Assembly: GCA_022013085.1 (NCBI GenBank)
Contig: JAKLQX010000076.1
Location: 1 to 39,715 of the forward strand
Source: Candidatus Omnitrophota bacterium
Lineage (GTDB): Bacteria; Omnitrophota; Gorgyraeia; Gygaellales; Profunditerraquicolaceae
Length of the DNA: 39,715 nucleotides
Direction: 5' to 3'
Below, one piece after another: positions 2,698 to 23,646 of the stretch (within the stretch, counting starts at the first letter, position 1; each line of letters starts with the position of its first letter). The notes below the pieces were generated by a model. The model had not been told where the DNA came from, made no database searches, and saw only the letters and a list, made by a program, of their open reading frames with translations. Position numbers and translations under genes: made by a program.

Positions 2698-3627
2698 ATG
2701 ATTAACTTAAAAAAGGTAAAAAGATATTCTATTAAATCGCGCAAAAGCCTGGTAAACAAGGGGGATTTTGCCCAGTTACCTGTTAAGGGTAGAAGTTTTG
2801 CCAGTTTCTTAAGCTCTTTGCCGAATATCTTAAAAGCAAAAGATTTGCAGGCGGTTTCTTCCGATATTGTTAGCGCCCATAAGAAGAAAAAAGGGGTAAT
2901 TTTTATGTGCGGGGCGCATGTAATTAAGTGCGGGCTTAATCCGGTATTAATTGAATTAATTAACAAGAAAGTAATTACTTGTATCTGCTTGAATGGCGCC
3001 GGGATTATCCATGATTTTGAGCTGGCTTTCCAGGGCAAAACTTCTGAAGATGTTGCCGAAAACCTTAAAACCGGAAGATTCGGTATGGGTAAGGAGAGCG
3101 CGGATTTTTTAAATCTTGCTGTTAAAGAAGGCGTAGGAAAAGGTTTTGGATTAGGTTATGCTGTGGCCAGTAAAATAGCTACCTCAGATCTTGCGCATAA
3201 AGATTTAAGCCTGCTTTATAACGCCTATAAAAATAAAATTCCCGTCTGCGTTTTTGTGGGAATTGGTACGGATATTATTCATCAGCATCCTTCTTTTGAT
3301 GCCGCTTCTACAGCGAACGGTTCTTTACGTGATTTTCATATTCTTGTAGATAAAATCTGTGCTTTAAATCAAGGCGGAGTGGTGGCTAATTTTGGTTCAG
3401 CCGTAATGCTGCCGGAAGTCTTTTTGAAAGCGCTTAACCTGGCGCGTAATTTAGGAAATCAAGTTAAGAATTTTACCACTGTTAACTTTGATATGATTTA
3501 TCAGTATCGTGCGGTGCAGAATGTGGTGATCCGGCCGACGCTTTCCGGCGGGGAAGGCTATTATATTATTGGCCACCATGAGATTATGCTTCCTCTTCTA
3601 GCGCAAAGTATAATTGAAAAAATATGA
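2698..3627 (+). CDS. Deoxyhypusine synthase-like (DHS superfamily?) protein
   Basis: ATG at 2698 preferred over the GTG at 2680; motifs MCGAHVIKCGLNPVLIELI, NGAGIIHDFELAFQGKTSEDV, ANGSLRDFHILVDKI; assignment from remembered family resemblance only. Confidence 0.5.
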   Translation: MINLKKVKRYSIKSRKSLVNKGDFAQLPVKGRSFASFLSSLPNILKAKDLQAVSSDIVSAHKKKKGVIFMCGAHVIKCGLNPVLIELINKKVITCICLNGAGIIHDFELAFQGKTSEDVAENLKTGRFGMGKESADFLNLAVKEGVGKGFGLGYAVASKIATSDLAHKDLSLLYNAYKNKIPVCVFVGIGTDIIHQHPSFDAASTANGSLRDFHILVDKICALNQGGVVANFGSAVMLPEVFLKALNLARNLGNQVKNFTTVNFDMIYQYRAVQNVVIRPTLSGGEGYYIIGHHEIMLPLLAQSIIEKI

Positions 3628-3708
3628 TCCCCGCACCTTCTCTATATCTAGTTTTCAGAAGGCGTAGGGTTTAAAAAATAATTAATATGGAAGAAGGTGC
3701 GGGGTGAT
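3624..3708 (+). repeat. Start-codon palindromic element copy A (upstream of hldE1)
   Basis: TGAT flanks at 3625-3628 and 3705-3708; 13-bp stem CCCCGCACCTTCT (3629-3641) / AGAAGGTGCGGGG (3692-3704); last G of right arm is first base of GTG start. Confidence 0.85.
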
Positions 3709-5459: not shown

Positions 5460-6271
5460 TGCAGCAGGTTAGTATTAAAAATATTAAGTTTGGGGATAAA
5501 CAGCCGCTTGTGCTTATTGCCGGCCCTTGTGTTATCCAGTCACTGAGTTTTTGTTTGGATACCGCTAAGAAAATTAAGCGTATTGCAGATGATTGTGGTA
5601 TGCCATTTATTTTTAAATCTAGTTTTGATAAAGCTAATCGGCTCTCTATTGATTCTTATCGCGGGCCAGGGTTAATTAAAGGCTTGGCGATTTTAAAATC
5701 AGTAAAACAACAGCTTAAAATTCCTATATTAAGTGATGTGCATTGCGCGAAAGATATGCCTGCGGCTGCCCAAGTCCTGGATATCATCCAAATACCGGCA
5801 TTTTTATGCCGTCAGACAGATTTAATAGTTGCTGCAGCTAAGACGGGTAAAATAGTGAATATTAAAAAAGGGCAGTTTCTCGCTCCTTGGGATATCTTGC
5901 CTATAATTAAGAAAGTTGAGTCAGTAGGGAATAAGCAGATTTTGATTACGGAGAGAGGGGTAAGTTTTGGTTATAATAATCTAGTCACGGATTTTCGTAG
6001 TTTAGGAATTATGCGTGCCCTAGGCTATCCGGTTATTTATGATGCAACCCACAGTGTACAGCTTCCCGGTGGCTCAGGGGATTGTTCCAGCGGTCAGAGT
6101 GAATTTGTAACGGGTTTATCCCGGGCAGCTGTGGCTTTTGGCTGCGATGGTTTATTTCTTGAGGTACACCCTGACCCGGCTCAGGCGCCGTGCGATGGGG
6201 CAAATATGATTAATTTTAAAGAATTGGAAACTCTTTTAAAACAAGTTACAAAGATTAGAAAGGCGTTATGA
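5459..6271 (+). CDS. kdsA: 2-dehydro-3-deoxyphosphooctonate aldolase (KDO-8-P synthase)
   Basis: LIAGPCVIQS, FKSSFDKANRLSIDSYRGPGL, DATHSVQLPGG, FLEVHPDPAQAPCDGANM. Confidence 0.96.
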   Translation: MQQVSIKNIKFGDKQPLVLIAGPCVIQSLSFCLDTAKKIKRIADDCGMPFIFKSSFDKANRLSIDSYRGPGLIKGLAILKSVKQQLKIPILSDVHCAKDMPAAAQVLDIIQIPAFLCRQTDLIVAAAKTGKIVNIKKGQFLAPWDILPIIKKVESVGNKQILITERGVSFGYNNLVTDFRSLGIMRALGYPVIYDATHSVQLPGGSGDCSSGQSEFVTGLSRAAVAFGCDGLFLEVHPDPAQAPCDGANMINFKELETLLKQVTKIRKAL

Positions 6272-6379
6272 ACCCCGCACCTTCTAAATATTCATCTATG
6301 CAAACTAAAAGGTTTAATGAATCCAGCACCTTCTTGAAGGTGCTGGATGAATTAAGTAAGAAAGAAGGTGCGGGGTGAA
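6268..6379 (+). repeat. Start-codon palindromic element copy B (upstream of kdsD), with nested inner hairpin
   Basis: TGAA flanks at 6269-6272 and 6376-6379; 13-bp stem CCCCGCACCTTCT (6273-6285) / AGAAGGTGCGGGG (6363-6375); inner perfect palindrome ATCCAGCACCTTCTTGAAGGTGCTGGAT (6321-6348). Confidence 0.88.
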
Positions 6380-16807: not shown

Positions 16808-18147
<1,340 letters not shown>

Positions 18148-22793: not shown

Positions 22794-23565
22794 TTCAGTT
22801 GCTTTAATAGCGATTATCTGCGCGGTTATTTTTTCTAAGTTTCTTTGTGGCTTAGTGATAATCTTGTTTATCATTGGCGGTCTTTATGAATATTTTGTAA
22901 TGCTAGAGAAAAAAGGAATAAAGATCTATAAATATTTTGGAATTGGTATGGGTGCGATTATTCCGCTTTCTATAATGTTTAGATTCGAGCCTACTAAAAA
23001 CTGGGAGCTTTTATTTATTGTTTTAGCTTTGCTATTCATTTTTCTCATGCAGTTTAAGCGTAGAAATAGCTCTGGCGTAATTGTAGATATTGCTACTACG
23101 CTTTTCGGCATACTTTATGTTTCCTGGTTTTTTAGTTTCTTAATTAAAATTAGGTATTTAGAATCGGGTTTAGCATATTTAGCGGCGTTGTTAATAATCA
23201 CGAAACTAGGCGATATTGGTGCTTACTTAGTGGGAAGCAACTTTGGCAAGCATCTTTTAATACCGAGGATTAGCCCTAATAAAACCATTGAGGGCTCTTT
23301 AGGAGGTTTAGCTTTTAGTATAGTAAGCGCGTTAGCTTGCAGTATTTTCTTAGATTTTAATTATCTGCAGCTTACTTTATTAGGCTTAGGATTAGGCATT
23401 TTGGGCCAACTCGGAGATCTTTCTGAATCGCTCTTAAAGCGTGATTGTCAGGTCAAGGATTCAGGTAATTTATTCCCGGGGATGGGTGGGGTGCTTGATG
23501 AAATTGACAGTTTGTTATTTGCTGGGCCGGTTTTTTATTTTTATCTTAGCATAATTATAAAATGA
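22771..23565 (+). CDS. cdsA: Phosphatidate cytidylyltransferase
   Basis: Multi-TM; GDIGAYLVGSNFGKHLLIPRISPNKTIEGSLGG; KDSGNLFPGMGGVLDEIDSLLFAGP; start 22771 preceded by GGAGGA. Confidence 0.93.
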   Translation: MLAKRIISSVALIAIICAVIFSKFLCGLVIILFIIGGLYEYFVMLEKKGIKIYKYFGIGMGAIIPLSIMFRFEPTKNWELLFIVLALLFIFLMQFKRRNSSGVIVDIATTLFGILYVSWFFSFLIKIRYLESGLAYLAALLIITKLGDIGAYLVGSNFGKHLLIPRISPNKTIEGSLGGLAFSIVSALACSIFLDFNYLQLTLLGLGLGILGQLGDLSESLLKRDCQVKDSGNLFPGMGGVLDEIDSLLFAGPVFYFYLSIIIK

Positions 23566-23646
23566 ACCCCGCACCTTGTTTATATTCAATTACTAAAAGG
23601 CGTAGGGTTTTAAAACTAATTAATATAATAAAAGGTGCGGGGTGAA
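23562..23646 (+). repeat. Start-codon palindromic element copy D (upstream of dxr)
   Basis: TGAA flanks at 23563-23566 and 23643-23646; 11-bp stem CCCCGCACCTT (23567-23577) / AAGGTGCGGGG (23632-23642); shares core AAGGCGTAGGGTTT with copy A. Confidence 0.87.

Follow-up and report, generated by a model that had tools for sequence, protein, structure and literature searches.

Palindromic elements at four gene starts

The window, a stretch of 39,715 nt from the 1.39-Mb genome of an uncultured Omnitrophota bacterium (G000), contains four palindromic elements, each followed directly by the GTG start codon of a gene. They lie at 3629-3704, 6273-6375, 16813-16879 and 23567-23642, and their perfect arms are 13, 13, 13 and 11 bp long. 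The original prediction that these GTG codons begin genuine genes is borne out: the products are a heptose-7-phosphate kinase (hldE domain I) after copy 1 and a KpsF/KdsD isomerase after copy 2, and the genes after copies 3 and 4 are purA and dxr. Identical flanking 4-mers had also been proposed, TGAT/TGAT for copy 1 and TGAA/TGAA for the other three, and both rereading and a blind scan of the whole window agree. The scan (arms of at least 8 bp with identical flanking 4-mers) finds these four elements, one nested hairpin and nothing else; shuffled windows give 0.33 matches per window. For copies 1, 2 and 4 the original ATGA also provides the upstream stop, TGA, as expected; at copy 3 the TAA of the upstream gene ends 4 nt short of the ATG. 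The features of the window are as follows.

3624..3626, forward strand: original hldE ATG; the TGA at 3625-3627 doubles as the stop of the upstream gene, and element-free orthologues have a plain ATGA
3625..3628, forward strand: left target-site duplication TGAT of copy 1, found by the blind scan
3629..3704, forward strand: palindromic element copy 1, 76 bp, 13-bp arms CCCCGCACCTTCT/AGAAGGTGCGGGG (covariance model E=7.5e-16; fold z=-5.05)
3692-3704, forward strand: right arm of copy 1 with Shine-Dalgarno (SD)-like AGAAGG
3705..3708, forward strand: right target-site duplication TGAT of copy 1; G3704 plus TG gives the new hldE GTG start at 3704-3706
6268..6378, forward strand: mini-ORF of copy 2 (MNPAPSKYSSMQTKRFNESSTFLKVLDELSKKEGAG, then stop), from the old ATG across the element to a TGA overlapping the new GTG
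6273..6375, forward strand: palindromic element copy 2, 103 bp, before kdsD/kpsF; duplications TGAA at 6269-6272 and 6376-6379
6322..6347, forward strand: hairpin of 26 bp, TCCAGCACCTTCTTGAAGGTGCTGGA, nested in copy 2 and itself flanked by TGAA/TGAA at 6318-6321 and 6348-6351; a similar nested hairpin occurs in G014
16813..16879, forward strand: palindromic element copy 3, 67 bp, arms CCCAGCCCTTCCT, before purA; duplications TGAA at 16809-16812 and 16880-16883
23562..23645, forward strand: mini-ORF of copy 4 (MNPAPCLYSITKRRRVLKLINIIKGAG, then stop), from the old ATG to a TGA overlapping the new GTG
23567..23642, forward strand: palindromic element copy 4, 76 bp, 11-bp arms, before dxr; duplications TGAA at 23563-23566 and 23643-23646

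The 26-bp hairpin alone was considered as a common mobile unit and rejected, as the whole genome has one perfect copy, the nested one.

Distribution in the genome and the genus

The element family is far larger than the four copies of the original prediction. A search pattern that leaves out the flanking bases finds 22 copies in G000, and a covariance model built without the flanks found more. After de-duplication 45 palindromes were classified, and in 43 of them the right boundary is the start codon of an open reading frame. The enrichment at starts anticipated for a genome-wide search is thus present with the flanks unused. The remaining two sit in -35 boxes, and none of the 45 classified copies was found within a gene. 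At starts the layout is NTGNN-palindrome-TGNN, with one constant orientation relative to the gene. Single arms at other places in G000 (C41, C55, C103) are partnerless chance matches in coding sequence and were discarded.

Genus-wide, 125 start-type copies were collected from MAGs of the genus and a few relatives; the copies are related to one another, so survey counts are non-independent. The terminal inverted repeats are 13-bp arms with at most one mismatch in 101 of the 125. Genes bearing an element include purA, dxr, nusG, rplR, rpmJ, radA, murI, a hom-like gene, and nucleotide and cell-wall genes; names beyond hldE, kdsD/kpsF, purA and dxr are our reading of translated N-termini.

Target-site duplications and empty sites

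The flanking 4-mers are target-site duplications, as had been proposed. Their bases vary and yet match on both sides: they are identical in 37 of the 43 start copies of G000 and in 98 of the 125 genus-wide. The 98 perfect duplications comprise TGAA (84), TGAG (9), TGGA (2), TGCG (2) and TGAT (1), and among the informative copies, those other than TGAA with a left flank starting in TG, the 4-mers match in 14 of 16. One TGCG insertion is found at the MRKIFIAATKQNDGKTTV gene in three species (L033, L133, L095); the interiors can be aligned, and it is clearly one inherited copy.

The empty sites that were predicted to exist in relatives are found. The hldE start is a plain ATGA junction (...atATGA) in seven genus members (G001, G002, G004, G005, G006, G007, G013). 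It carries an element in G000, G011, G012 and G014, another hairpin in G009 and the right arm of one in G010. The purA start is occupied in G000, G012, G014 (by an element similar to copy 3) and G021. In G013 the element there is apparently degenerate, and most others have a plain start (ATGAAT). Occupied and empty sites are dispersed across the species tree, even between sister species at one gene, which shows that an identical position has repeatedly gained (or precisely lost) an element.

Insertions away from plain start codons

Not all insertions are at start codons. Four, with the duplication TTGA, lie inside complete TTGACA -35 boxes and rebuild TTGACA; a -10-like hexamer follows 16-17 nt downstream in three of them.

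L072, 1501-1581: -35-box insertion in G000
L077, 1501-1559: -35-box insertion in G000
L243 and L252: -35-box insertions in other bacteria

Further copies lie in intergenic DNA at TCAA, TAAA, TAAT or CTTG. Of the copies in other lineages that carry a gene for a GIY-YIG nuclease (see below), roughly half occupy intergenic sites other than starts. The original prediction described a design for start codons. The location stands for 43 of the 45 copies in G000, but insertions have also hit -35 boxes, intergenic DNA elsewhere and existing elements, so the apparent design is partly an effect of target motif and survival. The insertions in TTGACA and at other intergenic 4-mers thus indicate that the target is a short 4-mer, and that selection or targeting concentrates the survivors where the duplicated bases rebuild a signal.

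Elements have also entered one another. In tandem arrays (L081, L079 and L090 of G014, L119 of G021, L122 of G012, and L258) a second element, often of another subfamily, lies inside the GTG or ATG start created by the first. Several start-codon elements of G014 (L148, L149, L103, L157, L158, L159) contain nested palindromes (GGGGACGGTTCTCTT..., GACCTACGCGGTCTAC..., 26-bp TCCCGCACCTT..AAGGTGCGGGA hairpins), as though such elements were safe places to land.

Survival may not be the whole explanation of the location. Non-coding DNA outside the elements makes up 3.7% of the window's bases, and start codons account for 29-60% (0.29 to 0.60) of its TGAA-like sites compatible with non-coding DNA. 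Under a motif with even tolerance, the probability of at least 43 of 45 copies at starts is at most 4e-6 even with the most favourable motif, an estimate that takes the site share from one 40-kb window and treats copies as independent. This excess over the roughly 60% expected at most would fit machinery that actively recognises translation starts (or -35 boxes), for example through the SD-ATG context or through transcription or translation complexes, making the location more than survivorship. The re-entry of element-made GTG starts in the arrays of G014, G021 and G012 points the same way, as does the position of all four TTGA insertions in full TTGACA boxes, three with the -10-like hexamer. 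However, TGAA makes up 86% of perfect duplications and follows only 27% of gene starts in the window, which argues that a short motif matters. The nested hairpins at non-start TGAA or TAAA within other elements and the intergenic half of the GIY-YIG copies in other lineages also speak against active targeting, which we regard as unlikely.

New start codon, Shine-Dalgarno-like arm and mini-ORF

The right arm of the element supplies both an SD-like sequence and part of a new start codon. It reads AGAAGGTGCGGG followed by G or A, and this last base plus the duplicated TG forms the start (AGAAGGTGCGGG-RTG). The original prediction of a new start made from a terminal G holds for the GTG of 92 of the 125 copies; in the other 33 the terminal base is A and the start is ATG. 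GAAGG is invariant in all 54 of the 73-mers, and the arms are conserved while the interiors vary. One-sided changes in the stem number 11 on the SD side and 30 on the partner strand (P=0.002), as expected if the right arm doubles as an SD sequence.

Many copies can be translated through. Read-through of the right arm from the old ATG to a TGA overlapping the new start is found in 60 of 98 copies, compared with 15 in shuffles (maximum 28 among 300). The mini-ORF is open in 44 of the 54 73-mers, compared with 31.5 in a column-resampled null, and the other two frames are almost always closed. The path from the old host ATG through a short ORF to a TGA overlapping the new start suggests translational coupling. 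The excess of read-through and the open frame favour it, though 38 of the 98 copies lack the read-through. In about a quarter of copies the length breaks the mini-ORF frame, and read-through in those is 0 of 23, so coupling would not be obligatory. A coding function for the mini-peptide was considered and rejected: differences by codon position are almost flat (0.26/0.25/0.29), and with hardly any third-position excess the peptide itself is probably not selected; the open frame looks to be what is kept.

The hairpins might instead be domesticated regulatory leaders, kept by positive selection, in which the SD sequence is occluded unless the upstream gene or the mini-ORF is translated. The stems containing the SD sequence are stable (-28.9 to -50.5 kcal/mol, z -4.1 to -9.2 for the window copies), and the conservation of the arms, greater on the SD side, would suit such a role. 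Yet sister species differ in presence at the same gene, and purA, dxr, rpmJ, nusG, radA and murI have no common theme. The arms are also shared with non-start copies and with GIY-YIG elements of other phyla, like transposon ends, and an Rfam search at the gathering threshold matched nothing in the window, L144, L187, L188, L243 or L252. Regulatory leaders are an improbable explanation of the family.

GIY-YIG parent elements

Longer elements with the same arms encode a GIY-YIG nuclease. A search of G000 for distant arm pairs finds a 294-bp copy, situated at a purN-like start, with a frameshifted gene for a GIY-YIG protein. Intact elements are found at nrdR starts in two genus members (L188, 361 bp; L257, 295 bp) and at the pgsA start in another family of the order (L187, 327 bp), where the ORF begins at the host ATG (MNPAPSSYLAMYQVYLLRS...). 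With L144 and L237 these make five elements with the same arms, several of them at start codons; carriers of exactly this arm type in the sampled genus are three (L144, L188, L257), one of them frameshifted. Full-length elements are about 290-360 bp, and the nuclease is their sole gene. Pfam assigns L187 and L188 to PF01541 (E 2e-16), that is, GIY-YIG and not Y1, and the nearest solved structures are the UPF0213 proteins 1zg2 and 1ywl.

The nuclease is widespread. A phylum search finds its relatives in 198 of 384 genomes, and several of them have other arm types (CCCCCACACCAATT, CCCCGCCCTTCC). In a scan of GTDB genomes, GIY-YIG elements with palindromic ends came from Omnitrophota, from Patescibacteria and from one Nitrospirae genome. 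Within the genus the majority of GIY-YIG genes (L166, L186 and L179 are examples) lack such arms and belong to other subclades. An SD-like right arm is present in 8 of the 14 GIY-YIG elements of the start type and in 1 of the 20 others (P=0.001, related copies counted individually). The arms tend to be shorter at starts (15) than at other sites (16.6), but this is a trend only (p=0.08).

Three observations concern individual loci. At the nrdR copy of G010 (L188/L236, 601-1060) the old start is now ATA, with TAAG on the left and TGAG on the right, as if it were dispensable. In a Nitrospirae MAG, L245 is a GIY-YIG element with 19-bp arms at the GTG start of an epimerase-like gene on a G+C-rich contig (64_68), a hint that start-codon insertion also happens outside A+T-rich genomes. 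GIY-YIG elements with other arm types (L269, L270, L271, L272, L274, L276) have CGAA-TTGA-like and TTNAATTCGC-like sequences as flanks, as though a repeated GAATT..AATTC palindrome had been split in the middle by the insertion.

The interiors of the mini-elements align to the last 60 nt or so of the GIY-YIG ORF. With L144, 101 of 112 minis score above shuffles; the interiors do not match the middle or head of the ORF. Mini and parent have a reading frame in common (...YSGLKLRIRNSLNKEEGAG and ...YSTIKAIRFDKLNKKEGAG, each followed by a stop). On these alignments, the mini-elements are internal-deletion derivatives of GIY-YIG-encoding elements with the same arms. We infer that the GIY-YIG protein is the mobility enzyme because it is the only gene in elements with terminal inverted repeats and target-site duplications in several phyla. 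It could also be a hitchhiker, the element being moved by another enzyme.

Since the encoded domain has the homing-endonuclease fold, and several species carry an element at the same gene start, classical homing deserves consideration: the nuclease would cut empty alleles, homologous repair would copy the element, and the 4-base repeats would be micro-homology. Homing to one cognate allele does not agree with near-identical copies (3-7 differences per 73 nt) in dozens of unrelated genes per genome. In addition, flanks other than TGAA match on both sides, which calls for target duplication and not donor micro-homology. We consider homing very doubtful.

Comparison with known systems

The mini-elements resemble bacterial MITEs (ERIC, Correia/NEMIS, RUP) in their terminal inverted repeats, target-site duplication, multiple copies and origin by internal deletion. 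To our knowledge none of these MITEs derives from a GIY-YIG element. The bacterial MITEs listed in a review have mostly TA at their termini, and no start-codon rebuilding is described among them (PMC2229807). The same review lists Rickettsia palindromic elements (RPE) with terminal inverted repeats and ORFs (PMC2229807). Like RPE, the Omnitrophota minis are short palindromic repeats of about 100 bp with an open frame that enter protein genes. RPE are fused in frame inside coding sequences, whereas the minis are found at the start codon and not in frame within genes, with a stop overlapping the new start; they also have a clear 4-bp target-site duplication and, unlike RPE, a nuclease-coding parent.

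The parent shares PF01541 with GIY-YIG homing endonucleases and with single-domain UPF0213/YhbQ-like proteins, which are intron-borne, free-standing or housekeeping. Here, in contrast, the gene is carried by an element that has palindromic ends, a 4-bp duplication and many unrelated target genes. IS200/IS605 and REP/RAYT elements are similar in their hairpin ends and short TGA-like target preference, but IS200/IS605 elements make no target duplication and use a Y1 transposase. The Omnitrophota ORF is GIY-YIG, and the flanks of the minis match even as TGAG, TGGA, TGCG or TGAT. The byp elements of yeast mitochondria are mobile GC-rich hairpins that the ribosome skips inside a gene. They too are compatible with the translation of essential genes, and the new start codon of the minis makes such skipping unnecessary. 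A search confined to open-access papers found no description of such an element, and as far as checked the parent gene and the start-codon niche of this MITE-like family are undescribed. The GIY-YIG element stands a fair chance of representing a new class.

Proposed explanation and significance

We think it likely that a GIY-YIG mobile-element family and its MITE derivatives, with a TGAA-like target preference, became concentrated at start codons by survivorship or entrenchment. The minis would be non-autonomous, derived from a small mobile element whose only gene encodes a single-domain GIY-YIG protein. Its ends are palindromic over 13-16 bp, and insertion duplicates four target bases, preferably TGAA-like. 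An insertion into an ATGA(A) start thereby repairs itself. The left side retains the upstream stop and the old ATG, and on the right side the last base of the element (G or A) plus the duplicated TG forms GTG or ATG behind the SD-like AGAAGG. The stem would hide the SD sequence, but translation from the old host ATG and its ribosome-binding site would run through the hairpin along a short ORF left over from the GIY-YIG gene, whose TGA stop overlaps the new start. Ribosomes would probably melt the stem and restart there by translational coupling. Copies at start codons would be tolerated and hard to lose because the host gene needs the element for its start, while copies elsewhere would be purged, non-coding DNA amounting to about 4% of the genome.

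A further proposal is tentative, and we lean slightly against it: the family may represent a new prokaryotic class of mobile element, with a single GIY-YIG nuclease of about 90 residues as transposase and with ends that have evolved to serve as ribosome-binding site and start codon. The element would settle in gene starts, those of essential genes included, be translated from the host ATG, and hand translation back via the start overlapped by its TGA.

The elements offer a route for mobile DNA into the start codons of very compact genomes, many of them of essential genes, without lethality. Such entry would rest on the target duplication together with an element end that reads as SD sequence and NTG. 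The findings account for odd GTG starts and for the MNPAP...EGAG-stop peptides in annotations. They also provide a candidate mobility role, hitherto unrecognised, for the small 'GIY-YIG nuclease family proteins' that are very common in Omnitrophota and Patescibacteria, and the elements are a natural system for studies of translational coupling and target-site choice.
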